A model generated the notes under the pieces. That model saw nothing but the letters and a program-made list of their open reading frames with translations, ran no database searches and was not told where the DNA came from. The translations under genes were made by a program, and so were the position numbers. From Lacihabitans soyangensis (GTDB taxonomy: Bacteria; Bacteroidota; Bacteroidia; Cytophagales; Spirosomataceae), in the NCBI RefSeq assembly GCF_024343775.1, contig NZ_RJUF01000011.1:1-64000 (forward strand): a DNA stretch of 64,000 nt. The letters run 5' to 3'. The stretch's first letter is position 1, and every line of letters begins with the position of its first letter. Shown here in pieces: positions 16,156 through 46,775 of this stretch.

Positions 16156-16205
16156 TTATAATTCGCCAAATGATACGTAAAAATACTTAACTTGGCGAAT
16201 TATAA
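16156..16205. repeat. 50-nt palindrome downstream of ATPase-nuclease gene A (unit A3)
   Basis: Arms TTATAATTCGCCAA (16156-16169) and TTGGCGAATTATAA (16192-16205) are perfect 14-bp inverted repeats around a 22-nt centre. The same 50-nt unit occurs twice on the other side of the ATPase gene (17661-17763), in the same orientation. It lacks a T run and is not a standard terminator. Confidence 0.9.
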
Positions 16206-16247
16206 AATTTCTAATGTATTATTAATCAAAATTTTATACAAAAAAAA

Positions 16248-17660
16248 CTATACAAATAAATCAACTGCAGTAATCTGATTACTAACAGTACTTAAATAAT
16301 ATGCATTGGCTTTTACACCGTGAATACTAATCATGGTCGTGAACACGTTTTTCTTAGTTTTGGTGGCATTTATAAAAATATGCTTCCGTCGCTCCAATTG
16401 CTCTGCATACTGTTGTGTCATTTCATATTCTGTCTGGTAATACTTGGCCTCCAGAAGGTTTATCACATTGTCGTCACGGTCAATCACCATATCTACTTGA
16501 GCCGTACTATCAGGTGAAATCCAAGAATAATCCCTACTGATGATGCCCTGGATACCAAGTGTTTTTTTTATTTGAAATACGTGTTTCAAGCATAAATTTT
16601 CGAATGCATAACCCGACCATGACTTGAAACTTGGTTTATTGGTAAAATTGCTCCCTGTATAATCAGAATTCCCAAAAAACTTAAAGTAAAACAGTGTAAA
16701 TTCATCCACCAAACGATACAGGCTCTCTTCCTTCTTTTTGTTTATAGGAAAAACTTGGGTTACAAACCCACATGCAGTAAGTTCGTTTAAAATATTGGTA
16801 AAACCGCCTCCGCTACTCATTTTAGTCGCTTCCAAAATCTCATTTCTTGTTAGTCCTTTGCTTTTTGAAGCCAGTGCTTTTACAACCAGTTCATGCAAAT
16901 GGCTATTTTTAAACAAAGAGGCATAAAGATTTTCAAATTCATTTTTCAGAGTAGCATTTTTATTAAAAAACAATGTATCTAAAATCTGTCCGACGCTTTT
17001 ACCAGGTACAATGTCTTTTAAATAAAAAGGAACGCCGCCTACGCACATATAAAGTTGAATAATGTCTTTAAGAACGAGCTTAACATGATTCATCTCTAGA
17101 AAAGCCTTGGTTTCTTTCAAATCAAAAGGCCTTAACAATATCTGTTTGGTGATTCTATTGTGAAGTCCTCCCCTATTATTTATCACTTTGTTGATAATCC
17201 AAGAGGCTGCAGAACCACAAATCACCAAAACTATGTCTGTCCTTTTAGAACAATACATGTTCCAGAAATTGTCTAAAGCAGCCAAAAAGCCTGAACGTGG
17301 GGTTTCAAACCATGAAATCTCATCTAAAAAGATTACTTTCTTTTGTTTTGACTTCAAAGTATCGATGTATGCTTTTAATAGCGAAAATGCTTGGAGCCAT
17401 GTTTGTGGCTGCAAAGTATTTGATTTAGTAGCACGAGAAATGTCCAACCAAAAATTTTCGAGTTGCTGGTCAATGTTTTTCTCATGTAAGCCACTTGAAT
17501 CAAAAATTATATGCTTTTCATATACCTGCCGAATGAGATACGTTTTGCCAATTCTTCTTCTTCCATAAACCGCTAAAAATTCAGAATTTTCAGATTCCAA
17601 AAGAGAATTTAAAATCTGAATTTCGTCAATTCTACCTGCAACTTTCATATTGAAAAACAT
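16248..17660 (-). CDS. AAA ATPase with winged helix and PD-(D/E)xK nuclease-like domain (ATPase/DUF234 type)
   Basis: A 470-residue protein of the archaeal-type ATPase/DUF234 family. Walker A is GRRRIGKT (33-40) and Walker B VIFLDE (D113, E114). A winged-helix stretch lies at about 265-302 (GLTRNEILEATKMSSGGGFT). The C-terminal domain keeps a nuclease-like pattern: E354 in YAFENL, D390 in AQVDMVI, and E404-x-K406 in LLEAKYY. The biological role of the family is not established. The ATG at 17660 directly abuts a palindromic unit; MKV at 17648 is an alternative start. Copies of a 50-nt palindrome bracket the gene at both ends, suggesting self-regulation or a mobile cassette. Confidence 0.85.
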   Translation of the reverse strand: MFFNMKVAGRIDEIQILNSLLESENSEFLAVYGRRRIGKTYLIRQVYEKHIIFDSSGLHEKNIDQQLENFWLDISRATKSNTLQPQTWLQAFSLLKAYIDTLKSKQKKVIFLDEISWFETPRSGFLAALDNFWNMYCSKRTDIVLVICGSAASWIINKVINNRGGLHNRITKQILLRPFDLKETKAFLEMNHVKLVLKDIIQLYMCVGGVPFYLKDIVPGKSVGQILDTLFFNKNATLKNEFENLYASLFKNSHLHELVVKALASKSKGLTRNEILEATKMSSGGGFTNILNELTACGFVTQVFPINKKKEESLYRLVDEFTLFYFKFFGNSDYTGSNFTNKPSFKSWSGYAFENLCLKHVFQIKKTLGIQGIISRDYSWISPDSTAQVDMVIDRDDNVINLLEAKYYQTEYEMTQQYAEQLERRKHIFINATKTKKNVFTTMISIHGVKANAYYLSTVSNQITAVDLFV

Positions 17661-17763
17661 TTATAATTCGCCAAATCATATGCAAATATACACAACTTGG
17701 CGAGATATAAAAATTATAATTCGCCATATTGTATGCATTTTTATAAAACTTGGCGAATTATAG
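17661..17763. repeat. Two 50-nt palindromes upstream of ATPase-nuclease gene A (units A1, A2)
   Basis: Unit A1 (17661-17710) and A2 (17714-17763) each have 14-bp arms related to TTATAATTCGCCAA / TTGGCGAATTATAA around 22-nt centres. A1 has two changes in its right arm; A2 has a change at the outer end of one arm and one at the inner end of the other. Both share orientation with unit A3 at 16156. The centre of A1 carries TATATTTG on the minus strand (17683-17690), a good -7 box, placing a start site about 16 bases before the ATG at 17660. The palindrome could therefore be an operator over the promoter. Confidence 0.88.
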
Positions 17764-17805
17764 AAATCACAAGTGCCTGTAAATAAGTATTTTAAATATT
17801 TTCAA

Positions 17806-19941
17806 CTATAAATTTAAAAGCCACAAAGCTAGCCTTATTTTTTCATAACCCACATTACCTTCAAAGTGCTCAAAGACTGTTTTTATGCCATCGCCTTTTT
17901 TGAAGCCAATCTCTTCTACGGCGTCTTTGATGGCGTTCAAATCCCAAGGATCTATCAGAACCGATAAGTCGATTTCATGACCATCTTCCTTCATTTTTAT
18001 GAGGTGAGAAATGACTGTTGACTGAGCAATTGAGCGTTGCTGGGCGATTTCCTCCACCGAATATCCGTCCTGATATAATTGGTACGACACGGCTTGGGTT
18101 AAACCTTTTCCCATTCGAGAAGCCGACTCCTTATTTTGATTTACAAACTCAAAAATCTCCTTCAAAAACGCATCGCCAAACCGTTTGAATTTCTCTTGGC
18201 CCACACCCGAAACCTCCAGAAATTGTGCTTTTGTGATGGGTTTCTTGGCGGCCATATCAACCAAAGTAGCGTCCGAAAAAACAATATATGCCGGTGAGCC
18301 TATGGCGTCAGCTATTTGCTTGCGGAGTGTTCTGAGTTTTTCAAATAATTCTCCTTTTATTTGCTCAGTCTTACTTGGCGAAAACTTAAGCTGTTCGGCT
18401 TCAGCGGCTTGTCTTTCTGACGGCGATATATATTCTGATATTTCTACCATTCTTTGACCTTTCAAAATTTGGGAACTGACTTCATTCAATTTAAAAGTAT
18501 GCCCTTCGTCGTAAGCAATATCAAAGGCCCCGTAGTTTAACAGTTGCAAAATATAATCCACCCAAATTTCGGCTTTGAGGTCTTTTCCAACTCCAAAGGT
18601 TGGCAATTGGTCATAGCCATGACGTATCACACTTTGGTTTCGGCTGCCTCTCAGAATATCCATCAACATGGTTAGAGCTATTTTCTGATTGGTCCTGAAA
18701 ATGGCTGAAAGAGCTTTTTGTGCCAAAACCGTAGCGTCAAATTTCTTTCGTGGATTTTTACAAACATCACAATTGCCGCAGTCCTTGCCAATGTCCTCGT
18801 TGAAATAACTGATTAAAATCCGCCTGCGGCAAATATTGGCTTCGGCATATTGCTTCATTCTATCCAACTTCGCCAGCATCAGTTCTTTCTGTTTCTCAGG
18901 AAGTTCTGAGCTTTTTATCATGTCAGTTCGTGTGACGATATCTGCAAAACTATAGAAAAGTACAGTTTGAGCAGGAGTGCCATCTCGACCAGCACGGCCA
19001 ATTTCCTGATAAAAACTCTCCACATTGCTGGGCATGTTATAATGTATGACCCAACGTACATTTGACTTGTCGATGCCCATTCCAAAGGCTATCGTGGCCA
19101 CAATGATAGGCGTTTCGTCTTTGATAAAATTCTCCTGAATTTTGGATCTTTTATCGGCCGGAATTCCAGCATGATAAGCTTCTGCCTTGAAACCCAAATT
19201 GTTGAGGCTTTCCGCCACCGCTTCTGTCGATTTCCGACTTAGACAATAAATGATGCCCGACTGATTTGGAACTTTATTGAGGAATGACTGAATTTGTTGA
19301 AGCCTTTTCCGTCCCGGCAATACTTCTAAGCTGATATTTGGCCTGTCAAAACTACTGATAAAGGTATGTTCCTCAGGAATTTGCAATTGCTTACAAATGT
19401 CTCTACGAGTGACTTTGTCGGCCGTGGCGGTGAGTGCTATTACTGGGATTTCAGGAAATTCTTCTTTTAAAATTGAAAGCTGACGATACTCCGGCCTGAA
19501 ATCATGTCCCCAAGAAGAAATACAATGCGATTCGTCTATCGCAAAAAGTGAAATATTTAGGTTCTTGAAATTCTCAACCATATTGCCCGAAAACAATTTC
19601 TCCGGTGCAATGTAAAGCAGTTTTAATTCTCCCAATTTGGCTGCCCAAAAAACGGCATCTTGCTCATCGTTTGATATGCTCGAATTCAGAAAAGAGGCTT
19701 TTATTCCATTGCTTCTTAGGGCCTCCACTTGGTCTTTCATCAAGGCAATCAATGGCGAAATAACCACCGTAAGACCATCTAAAACCATAGCAGGCACTTG
19801 AAAGCAAATAGATTTTCCTCCACCCGTCGGCATCAAAACCAGAGCATCTTTCTTGTCTAAAACATGGTCAATGATTTCGGCTTGAAGGGGCCTAAACGAA
19901 TCGTATCCGAAGTACTTCTTGAGAGCGGTGGTTTTGGTCAT
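17806..19941 (-). CDS. recQ: ATP-dependent DNA helicase RecQ
   Basis: A 711-residue superfamily 2 helicase that unwinds DNA 3'-5' in recombination and fork repair. Motif I is MPTGGGKS (about 37-44), motif II IDESHC, and motif VI EIGRAGRDG (about 310). The RecQ zinc site (CRRRILISYF, then CGNCDVC) and RQC region follow. An HRDC domain (about 510-590) and a C-terminal helix-turn-helix region (about 615-700, SVEEIAQQRSIAQSTVISHL) complete it. All domains are present and the length is typical for Bacteroidota RecQ. It is transcribed in the same direction as the ATPase gene downstream. Confidence 0.96.
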   Translation of the reverse strand: MTKTTALKKYFGYDSFRPLQAEIIDHVLDKKDALVLMPTGGGKSICFQVPAMVLDGLTVVISPLIALMKDQVEALRSNGIKASFLNSSISNDEQDAVFWAAKLGELKLLYIAPEKLFSGNMVENFKNLNISLFAIDESHCISSWGHDFRPEYRQLSILKEEFPEIPVIALTATADKVTRRDICKQLQIPEEHTFISSFDRPNISLEVLPGRKRLQQIQSFLNKVPNQSGIIYCLSRKSTEAVAESLNNLGFKAEAYHAGIPADKRSKIQENFIKDETPIIVATIAFGMGIDKSNVRWVIHYNMPSNVESFYQEIGRAGRDGTPAQTVLFYSFADIVTRTDMIKSSELPEKQKELMLAKLDRMKQYAEANICRRRILISYFNEDIGKDCGNCDVCKNPRKKFDATVLAQKALSAIFRTNQKIALTMLMDILRGSRNQSVIRHGYDQLPTFGVGKDLKAEIWVDYILQLLNYGAFDIAYDEGHTFKLNEVSSQILKGQRMVEISEYISPSERQAAEAEQLKFSPSKTEQIKGELFEKLRTLRKQIADAIGSPAYIVFSDATLVDMAAKKPITKAQFLEVSGVGQEKFKRFGDAFLKEIFEFVNQNKESASRMGKGLTQAVSYQLYQDGYSVEEIAQQRSIAQSTVISHLIKMKEDGHEIDLSVLIDPWDLNAIKDAVEEIGFKKGDGIKTVFEHFEGNVGYEKIRLALWLLNL

Positions 19942-20159
19942 TTCTTAAATTCCTGAAAATAAAGGTTTTGAATGCTGCAAAATAAAGGCTTTCTAAGGTT
20001 TCTAAAAAATTTGAATTTTTATTGCTAAAATTTTGAGCAAAAACATGAATGAATCATTTCAAAACAACGTGCGAGTTTCAAAGAAAAAAATAGTATTACA
20101 GAATAATCTAAATAATTTTGATTGATTTCGATGAAATCTTAAAAATAACGAAAAGTCTT

Positions 20160-20359
20160 CGACCTCTCTGAGGTCGCTTATTTTGGTTTGATTGACCAGA
20201 CTTAATATAATTTGACCGCTCTGCGGTCATTTCAAATTTGACTCTTTATTAATCGTTTTAAAATGCGACTAGATATATCTCAAAGTTCATGACCTCAGAG
20301 AGGTCAGACTATATTAAATTTGGAAGCCAATTATCAAGAATACGACCTCAGAAAGGTCG
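20160..20359. repeat. REP cluster: four GACCTC hairpins in inverted pairs
   Basis: The 476-base gap between recQ and rluF has no gene but four short hairpins: 20160-20176 (CGACCTC-TCT-GAGGTCG), 20213-20229 (TGACCGC-TCT-GCGGTCA), 20290-20306 (TGACCTC-AGA-GAGGTCA) and 20343-20359 (CGACCTC-AGA-AAGGTCG). The first two have TCT loops and the last two AGA loops, so the pairs are in opposite orientation. Both pairs have exactly 53-bp spacing. The second hairpin carries a compensating base-pair change. This is the layout of a bacterial interspersed mosaic element. Confidence 0.82.
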
Positions 20360-20417
20360 GACTTTTTCGAGGCACTCTTAAACTTCAACAAATTGCACTA
20401 TGATATTTCAATAATGC

Positions 20418-21179
20418 TTACTCAAAATCCTCATACACCTTTGAGGAATCAACTGTGGCGGAGTTGATGATTTCCAGTTCTTTGGCGGTAAGGTTTCTCC
20501 ATTTTCCGATTGGTAAGTCCAAAGGTATGTGCATGATTCTTATCCTTTTGAGTTTGGTCACAGAATAACCTAAATATTCACACATTCGTCTGATTTGGCG
20601 ATTCAGGCCTTGTGTAAGGATAATTTTGAAGGTGTATAAATCAACTTTTTCTACTTTGCAGGGTCTCGTGACCGTGTCGAGAATGGGTACGCCTTTACTC
20701 ATCTTAAAGACAAAATCTCGGCTGATAGGCTTATTCACTGTTACGACATATTCCTTTTCGTGGTTGTTTCTGGCTCTAAGAATTTTGTTCACAATATCAC
20801 CATCGCTGGTGAGTAATATCAATCCTTCTGAAGGTTTATCGAGCCTTCCGATTGGAAAGATGCGTTTTGGATGATTGATAAAATCTATGATATTGTCTTT
20901 TTCGGCTTTGACATCTGTGGTACAAACTATCCCTATAGGCTTATTAAAAGCTAAATAAACGTGCTGTTCTTTGGGTTCTGAAATCAACTTTCCGTCCACT
21001 CGTATTTCGTCGCCTTCCTGGATTCTGGTTCCCATTTCGGGTACCTTTCCGTTAATGGTTACCCGACGTTCTTCAATCAGTGTATCGGCAGCTCTTCTCG
21101 AACAAAAACCTACTTCGCTCAAGTATTTATTGATTCTTGTGCCCTTGGGTTCGTCTATGTTTTGATTCTGATCTGGCAT
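20418..21179 (-). CDS. rluF: 23S rRNA pseudouridine synthase RluF-like
   Basis: A 253-residue enzyme converting a uridine of 23S rRNA to pseudouridine; E. coli RluF acts at U2604. An N-terminal S4 RNA-binding domain (about 13-60, [20 protein letters not shown]) is followed by the synthase domain with the catalytic aspartate in [36 protein letters not shown] and [19 protein letters not shown] are strongly RluF-like. The ATG at 21179 gives a normal N-terminus. The upstream region carries four phased CACAAAG words. Confidence 0.9.
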
Positions 21180-21195
21180 ACGTTTCTTGCTGTAT

Positions 21196-21233
21196 CACAA
21201 AGGGACACAAAGATGCCACAAAGTTCCACAAAG
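21196..21233. repeat. Four CACAAAG words at about 10-bp spacing
   Basis: CACAAAG begins at 21196, 21206, 21217 and 21227, that is once per DNA helical turn. On the minus strand these read CTTTGTG and lie 17-54 bases before the rluF start codon. A related pair is at 9880-9979. The function is unknown; dispersed repeat or curved leader DNA are both possible. Confidence 0.6.
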
Positions 21234-21379
21234 GTTTTGTAATTAAAAAAGAAAGTTTCGAAACTTAGAAGGAGACGATACCATTTGATTTTGGCAAATA
21301 CTTTATAAGAAAAAACCACTATAGGCAATAAAATATGGGAGTATATCATTAATTGAAAATAAGAAACCTAACTACCCAA

Positions 21380-22219
21380 ATGAAAATCACACTTTTAATA
21401 TTTACTCTCTTCTCCCAACTATCTGTTTTTGCTAAGGAACAATTTGTTAATGATAGCATTAAGGTACTTTTTGTGGGAAATAGTCTTACTTATTATAATG
21501 CCATGCCACAGCTTCTTCAAAAAATGTTAAACGAAGGCGAAGAAAAAGTAAAAGTCGAGCAATCCACATTTCCAGGAGTATCGTTACAAACTCATTTGAC
21601 CTGGATGCAGAGCTACGGTGAAGTAAATGGAATAGACAGAGAGAATGGCAATATATTTTTGACGAAACAAATAATAAATCAATCCAATTGGAATTATATA
21701 ATTTTACAGCAGGGTTCTGTCAGTTATCTAATTCCAGAATATGTAGAAAAAAGTTTAGAGCCAGCAATTAAAGAGATAGTTCATATTTTCCCCAAAAAAG
21801 GGACTAAATTTATCTTATTTGAAACATGGACACCTTCGGTATATTATCCTCAAACTTATTGTCGTGCTAAAAATACTTCAGATTACTCCGCACCATTTGA
21901 GGAATTCTGCTCACCCAAAATTGAATCCGAAGCTCAAGAAATAGCATTAATTGCCGAATCTTGCAAAAAAATCGCAGAATCTAATCAAATGATTTTAAGT
22001 CAAAATGGAGAGCTATTTTATCTTTTTAAACTAAAATATCCTGAGATAAAACTTACCGATGAAGAAGCACACCCAACAAAAGCAGGAGCATTTCTCAATG
22101 CTTGCGTATTCTATGAACTTTTTGCCAACAAAAAAGCCAAAGAATTAGAATTCCTTGGCGATTTAGATATCAAAACTGCGGCAAAAATTAAAAAATTCGT
22201 ATCTGAAACCAAACTCTAG
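21380..22219 (+). CDS. Secreted SGNH/GDSL-type hydrolase
   Basis: A 279-residue protein with a signal peptide (MKITLLIFTLFSQLSVFA). Block I is VLFVGNSLTYYN, with the catalytic serine in GNSLT. An ILQQGS block corresponds to the central strand, and EAHPTKAGAFLNAC carries the histidine block near the C-terminus. This is a GDSL-like esterase of the GNSLT type; the substrate is unknown. The ATG at 21380 is chosen over an in-frame TTG at 21353 because it begins the signal peptide directly. Its stop overlaps the convergent aldo/keto reductase gene by four bases. Confidence 0.8.
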   Translation: MKITLLIFTLFSQLSVFAKEQFVNDSIKVLFVGNSLTYYNAMPQLLQKMLNEGEEKVKVEQSTFPGVSLQTHLTWMQSYGEVNGIDRENGNIFLTKQIINQSNWNYIILQQGSVSYLIPEYVEKSLEPAIKEIVHIFPKKGTKFILFETWTPSVYYPQTYCRAKNTSDYSAPFEEFCSPKIESEAQEIALIAESCKKIAESNQMILSQNGELFYLFKLKYPEIKLTDEEAHPTKAGAFLNACVFYELFANKKAKELEFLGDLDIKTAAKIKKFVSETKL

Positions 22220-23175: not shown

Positions 23176-23253
23176 TGTTTTTCACCGTAAGGTCGCTAGG
23201 CCGCTAAGAAATATTCATTCTTCTCAAAAACTAACCCTTAAACGGAAATTTTA

Positions 23254-24867: not shown

Positions 24868-24929
24868 GAATGGTTGAATATTTGTTAGGTTAAATTTACA
24901 TTTAATATTTTGTAAATCAAACACGTAGT

Positions 24930-25046
24930 GCGATTTTTCAAATCGCTAACAAGTAAAAAACACACCTTGGAAAATCGGGATATGCAGAAACGTAATGCGA
25001 TTTTTCAAATCGCTGACAATCAAAAACCACGATTTGAAAAATCGTG
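24930..25046. repeat. REP cluster: GCGATTT-type palindromes
   Basis: Three hairpins: GCGATTT-TTC-AAATCGC at 24930-24946 and again at 24997-25013, and the inverted form CACGATTT-GAA-AAATCGTG at 25028-25046. The last two together form a larger palindrome bounded by ACGTAA (about 24990) and TTACGT (to about 25052). They fill the 188-base gap between the SDR and Gfo/Idh/MocA genes. Confidence 0.78.
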
Positions 25047-25055
25047 TTACGTAAC

Positions 25056-25878: not shown

Positions 25879-26047
25879 CGTGCCTTGCCAGGCAGGCTTT
25901 CTTTTTTTCGAAAAAAAGAAACAAAAAAACAGCAACAGAAAAATGATCCTCTCCAAAAATTTGGTTTTCGACCTTGAAACCAGATTTAAAAATAACTCAT
26001 AACCAAATTTTTGGAACGGACTTTTCTGTTAGAATTAGGAACCATTT
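25879..26047. other. Structured intergenic element, copy 1
   Basis: An ordered set of palindromes: a GCC-rich hairpin (about 25882-25897), a perfect TTTC...GAAA palindrome centred on TTTCGAAA (25898-25921), and a long hairpin. In the long hairpin AACAGAAAA (25934-25942) pairs with TTTTCTGTT (26022-26030), and CCAAAAATTTGGTT (25953-25966) pairs perfectly with its complement at 26001-26014. The internal loop is ATGATCCTCT opposite AACGGAC, and the apical loop is 34 nt. A tail GGAACCATTT follows. A second copy with different stems but identical internal loop is at 27589-27760. It may be an RNA or DNA element; the acting strand is not known. Confidence 0.8.
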
Positions 26048-27588: not shown

Positions 27589-27760
27589 CGTGTGCCCTGC
27601 CGGGCGGGCGATACTTTTTTTCGAAAAAAAGTATCCAAAAAAACATCTTCTGAACAATGATCCTCTCTGAAAATTTGATTGAAAACATTGTAAAAAGTAA
27701 TTTGATTTAGGTTAAATCAAATTTCCAGAACGGACTGTTCAGAAATTAAAGGAACCATTT
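27589..27760. other. Structured intergenic element, copy 2
   Basis: The same design as the element at 25879-26047. A GCC-rich hairpin (about 27591-27608) is followed by a perfect palindrome GATAC...GTATC centred on TTTCGAAA (27610-27635). In the long hairpin TTCTGAACA (27648-27656) pairs with TGTTCAGAA (27736-27744), and CTGAAAATTTGATT (27667-27680) pairs with 27715-27728 with one mismatch. The internal loop ATGATCCTCT / AACGGAC is identical to copy 1, as are the 34-nt apical loop length and the GGAACCATTT tail. Stem sequences differ by paired changes. No gene was found in 27534-27827. Confidence 0.8.
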
Positions 27761-35784: not shown

Positions 35785-36421
35785 TAGTTTTAAGATATTT
35801 AAAATGTTTCTAATGGTCACATAATGTCAAAGCGGAGCTTTCAAAGGAGAATATTGTGTGTCTCTCATCTAAAAACTGTGTCTGTGATTTACGCAACGGT
35901 AATTTTACGGTATTGATATTATAACGTAAAAATAAGGTTCCCTAAGGTATTTTTTTCAATTGATGAGGCAAATTGAAAAAAAAAAAAACTCCTATCCTAA
36001 TGTTTGATAAATTATTTTAAAAAACCAAAATCGCCCCAAACTTACCAAAATTGACCTATATCAATTTTTTATAGGTAATACTTCTCTATTCGTAATAATT
36101 CACTTCTTTTCAAGAATAAGACCGTTCAATAAAAAAAATAGCGACCCAAAAAATATGAGTCGCGATTCCTACACTAATCCCAGTTATTTAATTTTTTCAG
36201 GGTGAAAAATTTCACACCATCCCAATTAAATTCCACTTATATAGACGCACTTCATGGGCTTTTCGATGCCTCATTTTTGAATTTATTTTCCATAAAAATA
36301 TTCATCTACCAATTATGCCAACTGATACCCAAAAAATCAGAATTTATGAGTGATTTTGTTTTTTTGTTTAAAAAATAAATACATTTACTTCTCATTTTTA
36401 TCACCAAACGAAACCCTCAAA
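35785..36421. other. Divergent intergenic region (637 bases)
   Basis: It lies between two divergent genes, so promoters for both must be here. Features seen: an A run at about 35975-35988, a minus-strand terminator-like hairpin (36141-36163), and, for the plus gene, TTTG (36355-36358), 21 bases, then TACATTTA (36380-36387). No protein-coding gene was supported. Confidence 0.5.
36129..36163 (-). terminator. Terminator-like hairpin with no obvious parent gene
   Basis: On the minus strand GCGACTC pairs with GGGTCGC (36141-36163; one G-T pair) and is followed by a run of eight T. No minus-strand gene lies immediately upstream, since the next gene at higher coordinates is on the plus strand. It may end a small RNA or an antisense transcript. 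Confidence 0.5.
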
Positions 36422-38065
36422 ATGGATAGAAGGAAATTTATGCAGCTCTCTGGGCTCGGTATGGGTGCCTTGGTAGGTGCGGGTATTCCGATTATCGGAA
36501 ACGCCACCACGCCAGAGCATCTACTCGAAACTCCCGCAGATGCTGCTCAAAAAAAAATAATGTCGGACATTGCCCTCAACGCCGCCCGAAGCAAAGGTGC
36601 TACTTACACGGATGTGCGTATTGGCCGTTATTTGCAACAGTTTTTGTTTACCCGCGAAACCAAGGTGCAAAACATTGTAAACGCAGAGTCTTACGGTGTG
36701 GGCATAAGAGTGATAGCCAATGGAACTTGGGGTTTTTCGGCTACCAGTGATGTGAGCAAAGAAGGCATAGCCAAATGTGCGGAGACTGCCGTGGCCATAG
36801 CCAAAGCCAATGCCAAAATACAGACAGAACCCGTGATACTTGCTCCCCAAAAAGGTGTAGGCGAGGTTACATGGAAAACACCAATTGTAAAAAATGCTTT
36901 TGAGATTCCTGTTCAAGAAAAGATAGATTTATTGATGAAGGTAAATGGCGAAGCCATGAAAAACGGGGCTGGCTTCGTGACATCTAACTTGTTTTTTGTT
37001 AACGAACAAAAGTATTTCGCTTCGTCAGATGGTTCATATATTGACCAAGACATTCACAGAATATGGCCAACATTTACGGTAACTGCCGTAGACAAAGCAG
37101 CAGGAAAGTTTAAAACACGTGACGCCATCAGCTCTCCAATGGGTATGGGTTATGAATATCTAGATGGCCTGGCCTCTGAAAAAATTGCAGGTCCTAATGG
37201 TTTGGTAGGCTACAGAAATTCTTACGACATGGTGGAAGACGCCATTATGGCCGCCAAACAAGCCAAAGAAAAAATGACGGCCAAGTCTGTGCCAGCAGGA
37301 AAATACGACTTGGTTCTTGACCCAAATCACTTGGGTCTTACTATCCACGAATCTGTCGGGCATCCGCTTGAACTTGACCGTGTATTGGGCTACGAGGCCA
37401 ATTATGCCGGAACAAGCTTTGCCACATTAGACAAATGGAAAGCTGGAAACTTCAATTACGGAAGCAAAAACGTAACCATAGTGGCTGACAAAACACAACC
37501 GCATGCCCTTGGAACTGTAGGATATGACGACGAAGGTGTTCCGTCGAAACAATGGAATTTGATAAAAGACGGAGTTTTGGTTAACTATCAAGCTATTAGA
37601 GACCAAGTGAATATTTTGGGCGAAAAAGAATCACACGGCTGTTGCTATGCCGACAATTGGGATTCGGTACAGTTCCAACGTATGCCAAATGTTTCTTTGC
37701 TGCCTGGAAAAGAGAAATTGAGTGTTTTGGATATGATCAAGGGTGTAGAAAAAGGTATTTATATAGTAGGCCGAGGCTCGTATTCTATTGACCAGCAACG
37801 CTATAACTTCCAGTTTGGTGGTCAACTTTTCTACGAAATCAAAAACGGAGAGGTAGTAGGAATGCTCGATGACGTGGCGTATCAATCAAATACACAAGAG
37901 TTTTGGAATTCGTGCGTTCAGGTATGTGATAAAGACGATTATCGTACTTTCGGGTCGTTTTTTGATGGCAAAGGCCAGCCTTCGCAGGTTTCGGCGGTGT
38001 CGCATGGTAGTTCTACCACTCGTTTCAATGGCGTAAATGTAATTAACACGGGCAGAAAGATTTAA
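36422..38065 (+). CDS. TldD-type metalloprotease with Tat-like signal (module 1)
   Basis: A 547-residue TldD/PmbA-family protein. The zinc motif is HESVGH (H309, E310, H314) in GLTIHESVGHPLELDR. It opens MDRRKFMQLSGLGMG, a twin-arginine signal. The ATG at 36422 is chosen because a longer reading frame only adds a non-conserved leader. TldD with TldE forms a heterodimeric peptidase that in E. coli matures microcin B17 and degrades CcdA; there it is cytoplasmic. The partner follows 68 bases downstream. A second module with the same order is at 42294-45377. No peptide substrate gene was recognised nearby. Confidence 0.9.
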   Translation: MDRRKFMQLSGLGMGALVGAGIPIIGNATTPEHLLETPADAAQKKIMSDIALNAARSKGATYTDVRIGRYLQQFLFTRETKVQNIVNAESYGVGIRVIANGTWGFSATSDVSKEGIAKCAETAVAIAKANAKIQTEPVILAPQKGVGEVTWKTPIVKNAFEIPVQEKIDLLMKVNGEAMKNGAGFVTSNLFFVNEQKYFASSDGSYIDQDIHRIWPTFTVTAVDKAAGKFKTRDAISSPMGMGYEYLDGLASEKIAGPNGLVGYRNSYDMVEDAIMAAKQAKEKMTAKSVPAGKYDLVLDPNHLGLTIHESVGHPLELDRVLGYEANYAGTSFATLDKWKAGNFNYGSKNVTIVADKTQPHALGTVGYDDEGVPSKQWNLIKDGVLVNYQAIRDQVNILGEKESHGCCYADNWDSVQFQRMPNVSLLPGKEKLSVLDMIKGVEKGIYIVGRGSYSIDQQRYNFQFGGQLFYEIKNGEVVGMLDDVAYQSNTQEFWNSCVQVCDKDDYRTFGSFFDGKGQPSQVSAVSHGSSTTRFNGVNVINTGRKI

Positions 38066-38133
38066 TTTGGTATGCGGTCAGACGCTAGTCGGACCTGAAA
38101 TCAAAGTCTTTTTCAAAAAACAGATTTAAAAAA

Positions 38134-39450
38134 ATGAAAATATTAACTAAAGAAGAAGCCAAAAAAATCATCGATAAGGTGTTGGCTTACTCCAAAGCGG
38201 ACGAAATGAGCGTCAACCTAAACGGTGGTCGCACGGGCAATATTCGATATGCTAGAAATACTGTCTCTACCAGTGGAGAGTCTGAAAATCAATCCTTAGC
38301 AGTCACTGCTGTTTTCGGTAAAAAATCAGGTACTGCAACCATCAATGAGTTTGATGATGCATCCCTAGAAAAAACAGTAAGAAGAGCAGAGGAAATAGCA
38401 AGACTTGCCCCTGAAAACTCAGAGTACATGCCTATTCTCGGACCTCAAACTTATCTGAATACAAATACATTTTCGGAAAATACGGCCAAAATTGATCCAA
38501 ATCTAAGAGCAAAAGCGGCTTTGGATAGCATTCTACCTTGCAGAGAAGGAAAACTTACAGCTGCCGGTTACATGGAAGACACCGCTGGATTTTCTGCAAT
38601 GGGTAACTCGAAAGGCCTCTTTGCTTATAACAAAGCCACACAGGTAGACTTCACCATAACCGTTAGAACTGATGATGGTTTGGGTTCGGGCTATGGTATC
38701 CAAGACTTCAACGATGTGGCTCTGTTGAATACCAAAAAAGTAACGGAAATAGCTATGCAAAAAGCCAAAGCTTCCGCTTCTGCACAAGCATTGGAACCAG
38801 GAAAATACACAGTAATTCTTGAACCAGCTGCTGCGGTAGATTTGCTACAAAACATGATGCGAAGCATGGACGCCCGCAATGCCGATGAAGGCCGTAGTTT
38901 TTTGAGTAAAAAAGGAGGAGAAACCAAACTTGGCGAAAAGCTTTTCGACGAAAGAGTAAACATTTATTCCGATCCAATGAATGCGGAAATACCTGGATCT
39001 CCTTTCGCAGGAGACGGTCGTCCGATGGAAAAAATATCTTGGATTGAAAACGGTGTGGTAAAAAACATGACTTACTCACGTTTTTGGGCAGATAAAAAAG
39101 GAGTTAAAGCGACACCTCCACCCAATGCCTTCATCATGGCTGGAGGTGACAAGTCTCTAGCCGATTTGATCAAGAGCACCGATAAAGGAATTTTAGTAAC
39201 CAGACTATGGTACATCAGAGCAGTTGACCCGCAAACTTTGCTCTACACAGGACTTACCAGAGACGGAACTTTCTATATCGAAAACGGAAAGATAAAATTC
39301 CCAGTGAAAAACTTCAGGTTCAACGAAAGTCCAGTTATTATGCTCAATAATTTGGAAGAAATGGGTAAACCAGTAAGAATTACGGGAAATTTGGTACCGC
39401 CACTCAAAATAAGAGACTTCACCTTCTCAAGTTTAAGTGATGCAGTTTAA
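38134..39450 (+). CDS. TldE/PmbA-type subunit (module 1)
   Basis: A 438-residue TldD/PmbA-family protein lacking the HExxxH motif, hence the TldE-like, non-catalytic partner. NIRYARNTVSTSGESEN, GTATINEFDDASLE and the C-terminal RFNESPVIMLNNLEEMG are conserved with its paralogue at 44040. It has no signal peptide although its TldD partner carries a Tat-like one. It is the last gene of module 1 and is followed by a terminator. Confidence 0.88.
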   Translation: MKILTKEEAKKIIDKVLAYSKADEMSVNLNGGRTGNIRYARNTVSTSGESENQSLAVTAVFGKKSGTATINEFDDASLEKTVRRAEEIARLAPENSEYMPILGPQTYLNTNTFSENTAKIDPNLRAKAALDSILPCREGKLTAAGYMEDTAGFSAMGNSKGLFAYNKATQVDFTITVRTDDGLGSGYGIQDFNDVALLNTKKVTEIAMQKAKASASAQALEPGKYTVILEPAAAVDLLQNMMRSMDARNADEGRSFLSKKGGETKLGEKLFDERVNIYSDPMNAEIPGSPFAGDGRPMEKISWIENGVVKNMTYSRFWADKKGVKATPPPNAFIMAGGDKSLADLIKSTDKGILVTRLWYIRAVDPQTLLYTGLTRDGTFYIENGKIKFPVKNFRFNESPVIMLNNLEEMGKPVRITGNLVPPLKIRDFTFSSLSDAV

Positions 39451-39506: not shown

Positions 39507-39523
39507 TTAAAGCCTTCATTAAA

Positions 39524-41280: not shown

Positions 41281-42011
41281 TTTCAGAAAACCAAAAGACC
41301 TTATCAATTTTAATACCTGTTTTCAATGAGGAAAGAACGGTACACTTTATACTTGAAAAAGTAGTAGAGGTAAATCTGATTGGGGGCTACAAAAAAGAAA
41401 TCGTTCTGGTAAACGACGCATCACGAGACAACACGGAAGGTAAAATTCAGGAATTCATCAATAAGTATCCTAACGAAACTATCAGCTACTACAAACACGA
41501 GATAAACCAAGGTAAAGGAGCAGCCATACATACCGGTATAAAAAATGCCAAAGGCGACTTGATAATAGTACAAGATGCCGACCTAGAGTATGATCCGAAC
41601 GAATTCAATATTCTGCTGAAGCCAATTATAGACGGCTTTGCGGATGTAGTTTATGGTTCGAGGTTTATTGGAGGTAAACCACACCGTATTTTGTTCTTTT
41701 TCCACTCTATCGGCAACAAACTTCTTACGTTTTTGTCCAATGCCTCCACCAATCTCAATCTCACAGATATGGAGACTTGCTATAAACTTTTTGATGCGAA
41801 AATCCTCAAAAGTCTCTCTCTTAGAGAAAACCGTTTCGGATTTGAGCCAGAAGTAACTGCCAAAATATCAAGAATAAAAGGAATCAGGATCTACGAAGTA
41901 GGTATTTCATATTATGGCAGAACCTACGAAGAAGGTAAAAAAATCAACTGGAAAGACGGTTTCAGAGCCCTTTATTGCATCCTGAAGTATGGCTTCTTTA
42001 AAGGAGCTTGA
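41277..42011 (+). CDS. Glycosyltransferase family 2 (dolichyl/polyprenyl-phosphate sugar synthase-like)
   Basis: A 244-residue GT-A enzyme. LSILIPVFNEERTV is the nucleotide-sugar-binding start, VLVNDASRDNT and VQDADLEYDP hold the acidic residues, and GFEPEVTAKISRIKGIRIYEVGISYYGR is typical of polyprenyl-phosphate mannose/glucose synthases. No membrane segments follow, so it is the catalytic domain alone. It is translationally coupled to the GT-C gene upstream. Confidence 0.9.
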   Translation: MISENQKTLSILIPVFNEERTVHFILEKVVEVNLIGGYKKEIVLVNDASRDNTEGKIQEFINKYPNETISYYKHEINQGKGAAIHTGIKNAKGDLIIVQDADLEYDPNEFNILLKPIIDGFADVVYGSRFIGGKPHRILFFFHSIGNKLLTFLSNASTNLNLTDMETCYKLFDAKILKSLSLRENRFGFEPEVTAKISRIKGIRIYEVGISYYGRTYEEGKKINWKDGFRALYCILKYGFFKGA

Positions 42012-42054
42012 GAATTTTATAAGGTTTCTATAATTATAGTTTCAACTCACCTTT

Positions 42055-42125
42055 TCAGAGATTCCGAAGTCTCTGACAATACCTTTATTTACAATATTAA
42101 GATTTTGCTTTAGCTAAAGGCAAAA
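42055..42125. repeat. Solo REP-like palindromes between operons
   Basis: TCAGAGA (42055-42061) pairs with TCTCTGA (42070-42076). A second, almost perfect palindrome, TTTTG-CTTTAG-CTAAAG-g-CAAAA, spans 42103-42125. The latter is close to the GGCTTTAGCC palindrome next to the transposase at 554-991. No gene lies in 42012-42293. For the next gene a TTG (42227-42229), 18 bases, TATATTTA (42248-42255) promoter candidate is present. Confidence 0.65.
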
Positions 42126-42293
42126 CCCTGAAGTATTTTAAAAACCATATTCCGTTAAAAATCCTTAAAAAGATATCCTCTCAACGTCCTATTTTATCCG
42201 CTTATACAATTGCAACTATTTGGCCATTGTTTTCATCTTTGATTTAATATATATTTACCTCATATTCATTTTCTAATCTAAAAGCTATTTACT

Positions 42294-43934
42294 TTGAAAA
42301 GACGAGATTTCCTTCAATTATCGGGTCTGGGAATAGGTGCGGCCATGCTGCCCAATATTCCTGTTATGGGAAACAATGTTTCCTATGAAGCCCTGCTCAA
42401 TGGCTCCATGGATGTAGCCGTTAAAAAACGCCTAGCAGATGCTGCATTAAATGCTGCTAAATCAAAAGGGGCCACTTATACCGATATTCGTATTGGTAGA
42501 TACCTCAACCAGTTTGTGGTTACCCGAGAAGACAAAGTGCAAAATATCGTTAACACCGAGTCTTATGGAGTTGGAGTTCGTGTAATAGCCGATGGCTGCT
42601 GGGGTTTTGCGGCAGTGGTAGATGCCAAATCAGAAGCTGACACCGCTCGTGCAGCCGAAGAAGCTGTTGCTATAGCTAAGGCAAATGCCAAGCTGATGAA
42701 AGAACCTGTTAGCTTAGCTCCACAAAAGGGCTTTGGCGAGGTCAGCTGGAAGACGCCAATTGTTAAAAATGCTTTTGAGGTACCTATCCAGGAAAAAGTT
42801 GATTTACTTCTTGGCGTAAACGATGCCGCCATCAAAAATGGAGCAAACTATGTCAACTCGATTCTGTTCTTAGTAAACGAACAAAAATACTTCGCATCGT
42901 CTGACGGTAGCTATGTTGACCAAGACGTGCACCGCACTTGGCCGATTTTCAATGTAACCTGTATCGATCCGAAATCAGGTAAGTTTGAAACCCGCAATGC
43001 TCTTAGTGCTCCAATGGGCATGGGTTATGAATACCTACAAACCAATCCAAAAGATAAAATAACAGGTGTAACAACCAGATACAACAAAGGCTATGACATG
43101 CTAGAAGATGCAATAGCTGCTGCTCAGCAAGCCAAAGCAAAACTTTCGGCCAAGTCTGTTGAGGCCGGCAAATATGACTTGGTTCTTGACCCATCGCACC
43201 TTTGGCTAACCATTCACGAGTCTGTTGGACACCCGCTTGAGCTTGATAGAGTATTGGGTTATGAAGCCAACTTTGCCGGAACATCCTTTGCAACTTTGGA
43301 CAAATGGCAATCGAAAAACTTCAACTATGGCAGCAAAGAAGTTACACTTTTTGCAGATAAAACTCAAGTCGGTTCTTTGGGTGCAGTTGGTTGGGACGAC
43401 GAAGGTGTTAAAACCAAAAAATGGGATTTGGTGAAAGACGGAACGCTTGTAAACTACCAGGCCATTCGTGACCAAGCTCACATCATAGGCGAGAAAGAAT
43501 CACACGGCTGTTGTTATGCCGACAGCTGGTCTTCGGTACAGTTTCAGCGTATGGCCAATGTTTCTTTGGCACCGGGTAGAACACCGCTATCTGTGGAAGA
43601 AATGATAAAAGACGTAAAAAAAGGAATTTATATCATAGGCGATGGGTCGTTTTCGATTGACCAGCAACGCTACAATTTCCAGTTTGGCGGTCAGTTGTAC
43701 TACGAAATTAAAGACGGCAAAATTGGTGAAATGCTAAAAGACGTGGCTTATCAATCTAATACTCAGGAGTTCTGGAACTCATGTAGTAAGATCTGTGATG
43801 ATAGAGATTATCGTTTGGGAGGTTCATTTTTTGATGGAAAAGGCCAACCGTCTCAATCGAGTGCCGTGTCGCACGGTAGTTCAACTGCAAGATTTGACGG
43901 CGTAAATGTAATTAATACAGGAAGGAAGATTTAA
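42294..43934 (+). CDS. TldD-type metalloprotease with Tat-like signal (module 2)
   Basis: A 546-residue paralogue of the protein at 36422, with long identical stretches around HESVGH (in LWLTIHESVGHPLELDR). It begins with TTG at 42294, giving MKRRDFLQLSGLGIG, a twin-arginine signal matching that of module 1; no earlier ATG fits, and the next methionine would remove the signal. The C-terminal YQSNTQEFWNSC and SHGSSTARFDGVNVINTGRK are shared with module 1. It is the catalytic subunit of a second TldD/TldE pair. Confidence 0.9.
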   Translation: MKRRDFLQLSGLGIGAAMLPNIPVMGNNVSYEALLNGSMDVAVKKRLADAALNAAKSKGATYTDIRIGRYLNQFVVTREDKVQNIVNTESYGVGVRVIADGCWGFAAVVDAKSEADTARAAEEAVAIAKANAKLMKEPVSLAPQKGFGEVSWKTPIVKNAFEVPIQEKVDLLLGVNDAAIKNGANYVNSILFLVNEQKYFASSDGSYVDQDVHRTWPIFNVTCIDPKSGKFETRNALSAPMGMGYEYLQTNPKDKITGVTTRYNKGYDMLEDAIAAAQQAKAKLSAKSVEAGKYDLVLDPSHLWLTIHESVGHPLELDRVLGYEANFAGTSFATLDKWQSKNFNYGSKEVTLFADKTQVGSLGAVGWDDEGVKTKKWDLVKDGTLVNYQAIRDQAHIIGEKESHGCCYADSWSSVQFQRMANVSLAPGRTPLSVEEMIKDVKKGIYIIGDGSFSIDQQRYNFQFGGQLYYEIKDGKIGEMLKDVAYQSNTQEFWNSCSKICDDRDYRLGGSFFDGKGQPSQSSAVSHGSSTARFDGVNVINTGRKI

Positions 43935-44039
43935 AGACCCTGCCCTCCCCAGTGGGAAGGGAGAATCAAGTAAATTAGCTCAGTTGAGTCCTAAATCAAA
44001 TCGAAATATTTCCTTTTTACCAAAAAAAGAACAAAACAA

Positions 44040-45377
44040 ATGAACTTAATATTAACAGAAGAAGAAGCTAAGACCCTGCTCAAAAAGATTTTGAGTTATT
44101 CGAAAGCCGACGAATGTATCGTAAACATCGTTGGTGAGCAAAGAGGCAATATCCGATATGCAAGAAACGAAGTTTCAACTGCGGGTGGCCTCACAAATAA
44201 AAACATCGCTGTTACCTCGGCATTTGGAAACAAAGTAGGCACTGCCACAATTGATGAATTTGACGACGCTTCATTGGAGAAGGTCGTAAGAAGAGCTGAA
44301 GAATTAGCAAAATTAGCACCCGAAAATCCAGAATACGAAGGCCTTGTAGACCCACAGACCTACATGAAAGCCAACGGATATTTTGAGTCAACCGCCAGTA
44401 TCAATCCCGACAAAAGAGCCACCAAAGTGGCTCAGAGTCTGGAATTGTGCCGAAATGAGAAACTTGTAGGTGCTGGATTCTTAGAAGACCAGCACGGCTA
44501 CACGGCCATCATGAACTCCAAAGGCATGTTTGCTTATTATGCCTCAACCAACGTAAACTTTTCTCTAACCGTAAGAACCGAAGACGGCAAAGGCTCAGGT
44601 TATGTAGCAAAAGGCTATAGTGATTTTAATAAACTAGACACAGCCGCTGCAACACGAGTAGCCATGCAAAAGGCTAAAGCTTCGGCAAGTGCACAAGCCA
44701 TAGAACCAGGTAAATACACTGTTATTCTTGAACCTACAGCGGCTGCAGTATTGTTGGAGAATATCTTCTTTGGTATGGATGCCCGCAGTGCGGACGAAGG
44801 CCGTTCGTTTTTCAGTAAACCTGGCGGCAAAACCAAACTGGGTGAAAAAATAGTAGACGAAGCCGTTACTTTTTACTCCGACCCAACTCATCCCGAATTA
44901 CCTTCCTCACCATGGTCGGGCGAAGGCTTGCCTCAACAAAAACTTAAATGGATAGACAAAGGTGTCGTTAAAAACTTAGCCTACTCTATTTATTGGGCCA
45001 AGCAAAAAGGCGTTAAACCAGTGCCATTTCCTAACAATATGATTATGGAGGGAGGAAAAGCAAGCTTAGAAGAAATGATAAAAAGTACCAAGAGAGGCAT
45101 TTTGGTTACGAAACTTTGGTATATCAGACCGGTGGACCCACAAACGCTCTTATTAACAGGTCTTACGCGTGACGGAACTTTTTACATTGAAGACGGTAAA
45201 ATAAAACATCCAATCAAAAACTTGAGATTTAACGAAAGCCCGATTATCATGCTTAACAATCTGGAAACCCTCGGTGTTTCGGAAAGAGTAGTGAGTACTG
45301 AATCAAACCAAAACTATATGATTCCTCCGATGAAAATCAGAGAGTTTACTTTCTCGAGCTTGAGCGATGCGGTTTAA
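44040..45377 (+). CDS. TldE/PmbA-type subunit (module 2)
   Basis: A 445-residue paralogue of the protein at 38134. It has no HExxxH motif and no signal peptide. Conserved blocks include NIRYARNEVSTAGG, GTATIDEFDDASLEK, MDARSADEGRSF and LRFNESPIIMLNNLE. It differs mainly near the C-terminus, with a short insert before IPPMKIREFTFSSLSDAV. It ends module 2 and is followed by a strong terminator. Confidence 0.88.
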   Translation: MNLILTEEEAKTLLKKILSYSKADECIVNIVGEQRGNIRYARNEVSTAGGLTNKNIAVTSAFGNKVGTATIDEFDDASLEKVVRRAEELAKLAPENPEYEGLVDPQTYMKANGYFESTASINPDKRATKVAQSLELCRNEKLVGAGFLEDQHGYTAIMNSKGMFAYYASTNVNFSLTVRTEDGKGSGYVAKGYSDFNKLDTAAATRVAMQKAKASASAQAIEPGKYTVILEPTAAAVLLENIFFGMDARSADEGRSFFSKPGGKTKLGEKIVDEAVTFYSDPTHPELPSSPWSGEGLPQQKLKWIDKGVVKNLAYSIYWAKQKGVKPVPFPNNMIMEGGKASLEEMIKSTKRGILVTKLWYIRPVDPQTLLLTGLTRDGTFYIEDGKIKHPIKNLRFNESPIIMLNNLETLGVSERVVSTESNQNYMIPPMKIREFTFSSLSDAV

Positions 45378-45400
45378 GAAACGATAAAAATATCTTTCTT

Positions 45401-45435
45401 AAAAGGCAAGACTCCTTGAAGTCTTGCCTTTTTTG
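45401..45435 (+). terminator. Intrinsic terminator after tldE-like gene 2
   Basis: AAAAGGCAAGACT (45401-45413) pairs with AGTCTTGCCTTTT (45420-45432) around a short loop, followed by more T. This 13-bp stem is the clearest terminator in the window. Confidence 0.92.
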
Positions 45436-45452
45436 TTCCCCATAAACTAACT

Positions 45453-45514
45453 TAATGACCAAATTAATATTAATTCAGTCATTATGTTGACCCAATTAAC
45501 ATTAATTTGGTCAA
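45453..45514. repeat. Two palindromes upstream of ATPase gene B (units B1, B2)
   Basis: B1 (45453-45484) has arms TAATGACCAAATTAA and TTAATTCAGTCATTA around TA. B2 (45487-45514) has arms TTGACCCAATTAA and TTAATTTGGTCAA around CA. The units have a 32-bp period. The pair is repeated in the same orientation just after the gene (46716-46775). A TACTTTTG -7 box (45543-45550) lies between B2 and the ATG at 45567. Confidence 0.9.
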
Positions 45515-45566
45515 TTCGTAATTATTTATTGAAAAACGTTGCTACTTTTGTACAAAGAGTAGTGAT

Positions 45567-46697
45567 ATGGAAATTATACGGAAAATCGAAAGTCGCATCA
45601 TCAGTTTCTTAGAACCTGGCAAAGTAAACATACTTTATGGAGCGAGAAGAGTAGGCAAAACCTACCTGCTCAAAAAAATAGCAAATGAGCAGAATGTGAG
45701 TTACTTATGGCTAAACGGTGAACTTCCCGAGGTTCAAGAAATTTTAGAAACAAAAAACCTCAACAACTACAGAAATCTTTTTGCGGGGTTTCAACTCGTT
45801 ATTATTGACGAAGCACAGGCGATACCACAAATCGGTCAAATTCTAAAAATCATAGTGGATGAATTACCTCATTTGAAAATCATAGCCAGCGGCTCCTCTG
45901 CGTTCGCTCTCACCAACAAACTCGGTGAGCCTCTGGTTGGAAGGGCATTTTGGCATGAAATGTATCCCCTTGCACAGTTGGAAATATCTTTGCAAGAAAA
46001 CATCTTAGAAACCATAAAAAACAAAGATGAAAGGCTGATATTTGGCAGTTATCCTGAGGTAATTAATCTTGTAGGCTTTGACAGAAAAGAAGAATATCTC
46101 AAAGACCTCGTCAACGCTTATTTACTGAAAGATATTCTTAGTTTGGAAGGTATTCGAAATGCCTCCAAAATATATGATTTGTTAAAACTCATTGCTTTTC
46201 AATTGGGTAAAGAAGTCTCATTAAACGAACTGGGCACCCAACTGGGCATGAGCAAAAACACAATAGAAAAATATCTAGATCTATTAGAGAAAGTATTTGT
46301 TCTAAAAAAGATAACAGGATTCAGTAAAAACCTGAGAAAAGAAATAACCAAAACTTCAAGATGGTATTTTTGGGACAATGGAATCCGAAATGCAATTATA
46401 AATGATTTCAAAGCTTTAAATTTGAGAAATGATACAGGGGAGCTTTGGGAAAACTACCTCCTAGCAGAAAGGCTAAAAAAGAATGAATATGAAAGAGCGA
46501 ACAAAGAAATGTATTTTTGGAGAACATATGATCAGCAAGAAATAGATTGTTTAGAAACTAAAAACGGTGAAATAGCTGCGTTTGAGTTTAATTTTGCATC
46601 GAAAATAGGCAAAATTCCGGGTGCGTTTGGCTCAGCTTATCCCAATGCAAGTTTTCAAACTATAAACAAAGAAAACTATCTGGATTTTATAGTTTAA
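45567..46697 (+). CDS. AAA ATPase with winged helix and degenerate PD-(D/E)xK domain (AAA_14/DUF4143 type)
   Basis: A 376-residue protein of the AAA_14/DUF4143 family. Walker A is GARRVGKT (25-32) and Walker B LVIIDEAQ (D81, E82). A winged-helix stretch lies at about 216-250 (VSLNELGTQLGMSKNTIEKYL). The C-terminal nuclease-like domain has E295 (LWENYLLAE) and D327 (QQEIDCLE), but the expected E-x-K is E340-F-N342, so the lysine is lost. The cellular role of the family is unknown. Duplicated palindromes bracket the gene on both sides, as for the related gene at 16248, with a different sequence. Confidence 0.86.
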   Translation: MEIIRKIESRIISFLEPGKVNILYGARRVGKTYLLKKIANEQNVSYLWLNGELPEVQEILETKNLNNYRNLFAGFQLVIIDEAQAIPQIGQILKIIVDELPHLKIIASGSSAFALTNKLGEPLVGRAFWHEMYPLAQLEISLQENILETIKNKDERLIFGSYPEVINLVGFDRKEEYLKDLVNAYLLKDILSLEGIRNASKIYDLLKLIAFQLGKEVSLNELGTQLGMSKNTIEKYLDLLEKVFVLKKITGFSKNLRKEITKTSRWYFWDNGIRNAIINDFKALNLRNDTGELWENYLLAERLKKNEYERANKEMYFWRTYDQQEIDCLETKNGEIAAFEFNFASKIGKIPGAFGSAYPNASFQTINKENYLDFIV

Positions 46698-46715
46698 AGG
46701 AAACTTTAACATATT

Positions 46716-46775
46716 TTGACCCAATTAATATTAATTCAGTCATTATAATGACCCAATTAACATTAATTCGGTCAA
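46716..46775. repeat. Two palindromes downstream of ATPase gene B (units B3, B4)
   Basis: B3 (46716-46743) and B4 (46748-46775) repeat the upstream block with a few changes: TTGACCCAATTAA-TA-TTAATTCAGTCAT and ATGACCCAATTAA-CA-TTAATTCGGTCAA, again at a 32-bp period. They begin 19 bases after the ATPase stop and precede the GH5 gene, whose likely -7 box is TATTTTTG at 46817-46824. Confidence 0.9.

Follow-up and report, generated by a model that had tools for sequence, protein, structure and literature searches.

Gene-private Palindromes as Probable Self-encoded Operators of ATPase-Winged Helix-Nuclease Genes in Lacihabitans soyangensis

Introduction

Why would a single gene carry copies of a palindrome on both of its sides, and why would a second gene of the same design carry a different one? 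The question is raised by genes A and B in a 64,000-nucleotide (nt) stretch of the Lacihabitans soyangensis genome (contig NZ_RJUF01000011.1, positions 1 to 64,000 of the forward strand), which is designated the window and lies on contig C11 of a genome of 5.65 Mb (labeled G000). Each gene encodes an ATPase domain of the AAA class, a predicted winged helix, and a C-terminal region resembling PD-(D/E)xK nucleases. The original prediction, made from the letters of the window, left a choice among a small mobile unit whose nuclease recognizes the palindromes, an addiction-type unit, and autoregulated genes with operators at both ends. The last of these is favored here, with the weight on sites upstream of the gene; copies at both ends occur in a minority of loci. 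We have good confidence that genes A and B represent single-gene, autoregulated ATPase-winged helix-nuclease units in which the winged helix would recognize a palindrome array private to the gene. The fixed geometry of the sites, together with bases that covary with residues of the predicted recognition helix (and, in family A, of the wing), makes self-encoded operators the most likely explanation. The private character of the sites, their geometry, the recognition code, and the solo sites at gene-less alleles are the steps shown by comparison of sequences.

Palindromes at Genes A and B

Gene A (positions 16248-17660, minus strand) encodes a protein of 470 amino acids, P0001, with an ATPase_2 AAA domain at residues 9-215 (Pfam). 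The ATG at residue 5 may be the true start, as an alternative to the annotated one. On the basis of the sequence and a profile alignment, the start of the recognition helix of the winged helix is placed at approximately residues 281-290 and the wing residue at 311; D390, E404, and K406 are assigned to the PD-(D/E)xK nuclease from conservation in the family. The gene is accompanied by three 50-bp units: one behind it (16156-16205; TTATAATTCGCCAAAT-N18-ACTTGGCGAATTATAA), between two convergent genes, a promoter-proximal unit directly at the annotated start (17661-17710), and a distal unit (17714-17763). The two units before the gene are 83% and 70% identical to the unit behind it over 60 nt, and the units on the two sides are in direct orientation. 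The exact sequence TATAATTCGCCAA is present in five copies in the genome, four of them at gene A and the fifth without a partner half-site.

Gene B (45567-46697, plus strand) encodes P0002, a protein of 376 amino acids with an AAA_14 domain at residues 19-140 and a DUF4143 domain (Pfam). Its winged helix has a putative recognition helix at approximately residues 230-243, with S229, K230, and N231 at the beginning, and the DUF4143 nuclease has E325, D327, E340, and position 342 as its candidate catalytic residues. Two 26-bp palindromes precede the gene, at 45456-45481 and, 32 bp from the first, at 45488-45513; two more follow it, at 46717-46742 and, again 32 bp from the first of the pair, at 46749-46774. 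The upstream and downstream 61-nt blocks are 93% identical in direct orientation. Allowing up to 2 mismatches, the gene B palindrome is found in the 5.65-Mb genome only at these four places, and the control in which it was read backwards gave 0 matches.

The direct similarity of the two flanks scores 70 for gene A and 102 for gene B; of 616 mispaired control pairs, the highest scored 40, and the 99th percentile was 29. These values confirm that palindromes flank both genes in direct orientation. A chance origin was rejected on the grounds that these scores lie far beyond the controls and that the gene B palindrome is private genome-wide. Membership in a genome-wide repeat family was also rejected, the copies being almost confined to genes A and B.

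Occurrence and Geometry of the Sites

Loci of the two protein families were taken from genomes belonging to the same family and class as the window, with a few other phyla added for family B. The loci of the window's family and of the other phyla are designated the first set, and those from the class are designated the class set. From 294 loci with usable matches, 286 were kept and 8 were dropped for short genes or flanks; the same filter had removed 7 of 157 loci in an earlier subset. Loci repeating a place already represented (L001, L006, L014, and L015) had been left out beforehand, as had those from the palindrome searches in the own genome and from the gene-less sites of gene A; loci in which tblastn gave no match to P0001 or P0002 at 1e-5 (for example L003, L004, L012, and L013) were not counted.

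Inverted repeats with a score of at least 12 are present within 250 nt upstream of the start in 190 of the 286 family genes as compared with 10 of 179 other genes of the same loci. By group, the counts are 60/69 (first set) and 44/68 (class set) for family A and 59/82 and 27/67 for family B. At a score of at least 9, they rise to 66/69 and 64/68 for family A and to 75/82 and 48/67 for family B, with 28/179 for the other genes. Downstream scores barely exceed those of other genes (13% versus 10% at score 12, in the first 150 loci). The check proposed with the original prediction, whether flanking palindromes vary with protein subfamily, is thus passed over the 286 loci for the upstream side, by enrichment and covariation; copies downstream of the gene are limited to a minority.

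The sites of each family have a characteristic geometry. In family A, inverted 16-nt half-sites (TTATAATTNGCCAAAW-like) are 17 or 18 nt apart in 132 of 137 loci, although the search also allowed spacers of 9-11, 16, and 19 nt, and 130 of the 137 loci outscore every shuffled sequence. Family B has alternating half-sites with a unit period of 32 bp in 94 of 100 neighboring spacings; 125 of 146 loci are above the shuffled maximum.

Covariation of Protein Residues and Site Bases

For the analysis of covariation, the palindromic sites were located without using the protein residues under test. The analysis drew on 130 of the 137 loci in family A and 137 of the 146 in family B, 3 of 149 family B loci with no more than 36% identity having first been removed. 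In family A, residue 283 and base 11 of the half-site give the strongest signal of all aligned columns (z 28, 130 loci); residue 311, which is probably in the wing, comes next with base 13 (z 21), and residues 284, 286, and 289 also appear. Counted as half-sites, two per locus, Ser or Thr at 283 is associated with C (134/140), Asn with T (56/70), and Asp or Glu with G (28/42), and at residue 311 Lys is associated with A (140/150) and Arg with T (45/52). In family B, residue 229 and base 8 pair Asp with G (128/130) and Ser with C (100/122), and residue 231 and base 7 pair Asn with T (159/160) and Lys with G (30/30).

Since relatedness could mimic covariation, the comparison was repeated with protein pairs of 45-95% identity. 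Residue 283 of family A then ranks first for base 11 with an odds ratio of 35, the next column reaching 6.9. The three family B positions also come first for consecutive bases: residue 230 for base 6 (odds ratio 39, next column 8.0), residue 231 for base 7 (189, next 14.9), and residue 229 for base 8 (84, next 52). The profile alignment of the two families puts their specificity residues within one or two residues of each other. Most likely, to judge from these patterns, each protein binds its own palindromes.

Position of the Sites Relative to the Promoter

The -7 promoter pattern of Bacteroidota is TAnnTTTG. Scored against this consensus, the own sites overlap or adjoin a promoter-like box, and the -7-like boxes peak near -30 in both families. 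The box of gene A, TATATTTG (17683-17690, minus strand), lies in the spacer of the proximal unit, and that of gene B, TACTTTTG (45543-45550, plus strand), sits between the array and the ATG, 16 nt from the latter. In family A as a whole, 21 of 129 proximal spacers, extended by 4 nt at either end, contain a -7-like box, the expected number being 4.4. Promoter occlusion, and hence autorepression, would be the simplest inference for this family.

Protein Families

P0001 and P0002 match known profiles over their full lengths: PADLOC PDC-S27 aligns with residues 6-469 of the 470 in P0001 (605.9 bits), and PDC-S01 aligns with residues 1-375 of the 376 in P0002 (497.4 bits). The term "undescribed element class", used originally, is therefore too strong, the proteins being known PADLOC candidates. 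The nuclease residues are near-invariant in family A (D390 in 130/130, E404 in 129/130, and K406 in 129/130) and in family B (E325 and D327 in 137/137, E340 in 135/137, and K342 in 136/137), as are the Walker motifs in both families. The proposed AAA, winged helix, and PD-(D/E)xK architecture is thus upheld by Pfam, by conservation, and by model and profile alignment, with the reservation that gene B has Asn at the position of the catalytic lysine. Codon 342 (46590-46592, plus strand) gives EFN in place of EFK, the single exception among 137 aligned family B proteins; the orthologue with 95% identity has Lys. The Walker motifs of gene B are intact, and in gene A the ATPase and nuclease motifs are both intact.

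Alignment of the family A and B profiles with hhalign extends over 349 columns (17% identity, probability 96.9, E 1.6e-10), which identifies the families, at the level of sequence profiles, as remote full-length homologues. Their shared design need not be independent and may have been inherited rather than invented twice, so that of the earlier claim of two independent cases beyond chance, the exclusion of chance stands by the controls and independence does not follow. The assignment of a helix-turn-helix is based on this profile alignment and on the AlphaFold model of P0002, which has a mean predicted local distance difference test score (pLDDT) of 71.5 and is weak around the winged helix (approximately 50-60). 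In the model, residues 229-231 begin helix 230-243, which comes after helix 219-226, as expected of a recognition helix. A single-sequence structure prediction for P0001 had a pLDDT of 38 and was not used.

The closest named relatives, Lacihabitans sp. CCS-44 and LS3-19, have gene B in the same place with 95% and 77% amino acid identity, respectively. Other matches to P0001 and P0002 in the own genome are at most 45% identical among the matches listed. One locus of the sample (L323, G249:C10:84300-89600) has two family B genes side by side on opposite strands.

Sites behind the Gene and at Gene-less Alleles

Units behind the gene were sought in the 266 of 286 loci that have an upstream unit. 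An own-type unit was found in 37, at a threshold exceeded by approximately 0.2% of controls. For family A, the window's genus has 3/7, the remaining first-set loci 0/61, and the class set 24/64; the corresponding values for family B are 5/11, 0/63, and 5/60. With the families combined, they are 8/18, 0/124, and 29/124. Among the 37 downstream units, 20 begin within 10 nt of the stop codon. Of the 31 two-sided loci for which a following open reading frame (ORF) could be identified, 23 have it in convergent orientation; the downstream units are therefore mostly not promoters of the neighbor.

Alleles without the gene were examined at three loci in species of the genus and were counted only if both neighbors were those of the occupied site. 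The empty sites are diverged, and a solo palindrome is kept in seven of eight such syntenic alleles. (i) At locus A, G150 and G144 keep one unit and G148 has none; G143 has a decayed gene start and two units. (ii) At locus B, G143, G144, and G148 each keep one decayed palindrome, the match of which was reached by 0 of 300 shuffles in each case; these are less symmetric than the occupied units (8/13 versus 11/13 pairs). (iii) At locus C, the site of another family B gene of the own genome (L005), G143 and G144 keep one palindrome. Alleles with differing neighbors or a partial match were not counted (locus A in G149, G147, and G145; locus B in G147, G145, G146, and G142; locus C in G147), and no such palindrome was seen in their inspected stretches, L125 and L126 being outside the inspection. 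The tree of flanking genes is ((((G000,G150)89,G143)86,(G144,G148)99),G149), with G147 as the outgroup. At loci B and C, loss is more natural than repeated gain because G149 carries the gene at both, even though a simple count gives two events for either scenario. Comparison of these alleles suggests that the solo palindrome is probably a deletion scar, and the solo sites fit deletion between the flanking repeats, via general recombination or the nuclease.

Elsewhere in the own genome, a convergent intergenic space contains an orphan unit of the family A type (C23:12104-12152; L097, from locus position 1500) together with a third half-site. Within the surrounding 3 kb, no ORF of at least 80 amino acids coincides with a match from the family searches. 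The unit may be the scar of another lost family member.

These sites bear on the proposal that the genes are mobile or self-excising one-gene units, with palindromes as ends at which the ATPase-nuclease cuts or recombines. The downstream units, many of them close to the stop codon, would suit such ends, but the sites track the promoter region, and no downstream copy was detected in 229 of the 266 loci. The palindromes at the junctions of the seven gene-less alleles, and the orphan unit with no family gene beside it, are also in keeping with excision; ordinary deletion between direct repeats, however, accounts for the solo sites. Matches to P0001 are patchily distributed (present in 42 of the 222 genomes from the family and in 57 of the 395 from the class), as mobility would predict, but gene B and the gene at locus C share at least one flank across three species of the genus, and the scanned flanking genes include no transposase. 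No sign of copying transposition was seen. We consider this proposal unlikely.

Discussion

Operators encoded and read by the same gene remain the preferred explanation, and the following mechanism is envisaged. The protein would bind its own sites as an oligomer and, since these overlap or adjoin the promoter, would repress its own gene. Binding may also park the nuclease on the DNA in an inactive state until some trigger frees it. In the minority of loci with a copy behind the gene, that copy may supply a second anchor, for a loop or a roadblock. The direct repeats on either side would permit deletion of the gene, with one palindrome left as a scar.

Several observations weigh against this explanation. 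In 7 of the 137 loci of family A and 21 of the 146 of family B, the sites score no higher than the shuffled maximum. Eight distant plasmid homologues were picked for taxonomic spread among 30 listed rows, out of 135 and 490 records with a match; an upstream inverted repeat that outscores all 50 shuffles is present in only three of them (Butyrivibrio, Segatella, and Treponema) and was not found in Malaciobacter, two Desulfosarcina genes, a haloarchaeon, and Dinoroseobacter. Columns outside the winged helix covary with the sites, including G336 with base 14 (z 17.8) and G448 with base 10 (z 15.1) in family A. In family B, the top raw covariation is that of R28 (z 40), which falls to an odds ratio of 5.2 in close pairs and is probably a clade marker, and the near-invariant residues G125 and A83 reach an odds ratio of 52 for base 8. 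An earlier run with 65 loci was noisy, with G448 first and G286 second after average product correction. The sites of paralogues in the same genome are not significantly more different than those of random pairs (p 0.09). Finally, the array of gene B is upstream of its -7-like box, and activation is therefore as possible as repression for this gene.

A more far-reaching proposal takes the palindromes as the operator, address, and boundary of a one-gene selfish or immune unit: infection or replication stress would free the protein, which is otherwise kept silent on its own palindromes, and the nuclease could also act at those flanking the gene, cutting it out or moving it elsewhere and so giving rise to the solo palindromes of the sister species. 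We regard it as doubtful.

The palindromes could instead act as RNA hairpins, in a leader or terminator, a role for which they could fold and for which some are suitably placed, directly behind the stop codon with a convergent gene next to them (in 23 of the 31 two-sided loci that have a next ORF). This would leave unexplained why base changes follow residues of the helix; moreover, the position of the -7-like box, within or below the units, would leave most of the array untranscribed from that promoter. The proposal is very improbable. An addiction or toxin-antitoxin unit has about as little to recommend it: autoregulating palindromic operators are typical of such modules, but there is one gene only. 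The gaps next to genes A and B contain no ORF of more than 48 amino acids, and no partner gene was seen; the neighbors are RecQ-like, TldD-like, GH5, or without a Pfam match, and sister species live without the gene. That part of the original prediction has no support. Least credible are scattered repeats of the repetitive extragenic palindromic (REP) or miniature inverted-repeat transposable element (MITE) type that flank the genes by accident, which would be palindromic, intergenic, and sometimes solo as well, but the gene B unit has no further occurrence in the genome, the units differ from gene to gene, and they covary with the protein.

The job of these self-regulating units is most plausibly defense against invading DNA, as their status as PADLOC candidates hints. 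A phage origin has no support: scans of viral contigs, which covered close relatives only, gave no match to either protein, and P0002 matches 18 of 50,697 phage records with a best identity of 41%.

If this account is correct, most members examined have a private, decodable DNA address, which would predict the sequence that is bound, the residues that set it, and where regulation or triggering sits. In addition, it would offer a naturally occurring example of a winged-helix recognition code, and the scar could be used to trace past copies in genomes that now lack the gene.

Other Repeats in the Window

Three further repeats were observed in the window. Two gene pairs, at 36350-39450 and 42294-45377, share long stretches of approximately 70-75% identical DNA at a distance of 5.87-5.91 kb, and the second pair consists of two PmbA/TldD-like genes. 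At 24918-25052, between GFO/IDH/MocA oxidoreductase and short-chain dehydrogenase genes, a different palindromic repeat (CGATTTTTCAAATCG-like) is present in two copies of 65 nt. Repeats of 78 nt at 25902-25979 and 27616-27693, 73% identical, occupy the gaps on either side of an Oxidored_FMN gene.

Comparison with Known Systems

Proteins of the Orc1/Cdc6 type have an AAA+ domain plus a winged helix and inverted repeats at their own gene and are not known to have a nuclease domain. They thus resemble genes A and B in the first three features and differ in the last. The best Foldseek match of the P0002 model is the AAA+ ATPase SSO1545 (PDB 2fna; E 1.5e-7), although the template modeling (TM) score is only 0.45-0.48 and the P0002 model is a modest one. 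Dedicated repressors of defense loci are a further comparison: RptR, according to PMC12255303, binds repeated palindromic sites in a defense promoter; it is a separate small protein, whereas in genes A and B the predicted reader of DNA is part of the ATPase-nuclease itself.

The systems closest to genes A and B are PDC-S27 and PDC-S01, which P0001 and P0002, respectively, match over their full lengths and which are described in passages of PMC12988326 as ATPases fused to the PD-(D/E)xK superfamily. The same text reports 9,986 S01 and 3,503 S27 systems in archaea and 29,494 S01 and 4,562 S27 systems in bacteria, ranks PDC-S01 as the fourth most common defense across all prokaryotes, and states that validation is pending for most such candidates; in an excerpt of PMC13356809, both are abundant in the rumen. 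No description of such private palindromes was found in the open-licence literature, a scope with most subscription papers and preprints outside it, which is weak evidence of novelty. The protein families are thus already known candidates, and the part that may be new is the private palindrome system: palindromes and self-recognition, which distinguish genes A and B, are absent from the description of PDC-S27 and PDC-S01 in those passages of PMC12988326.

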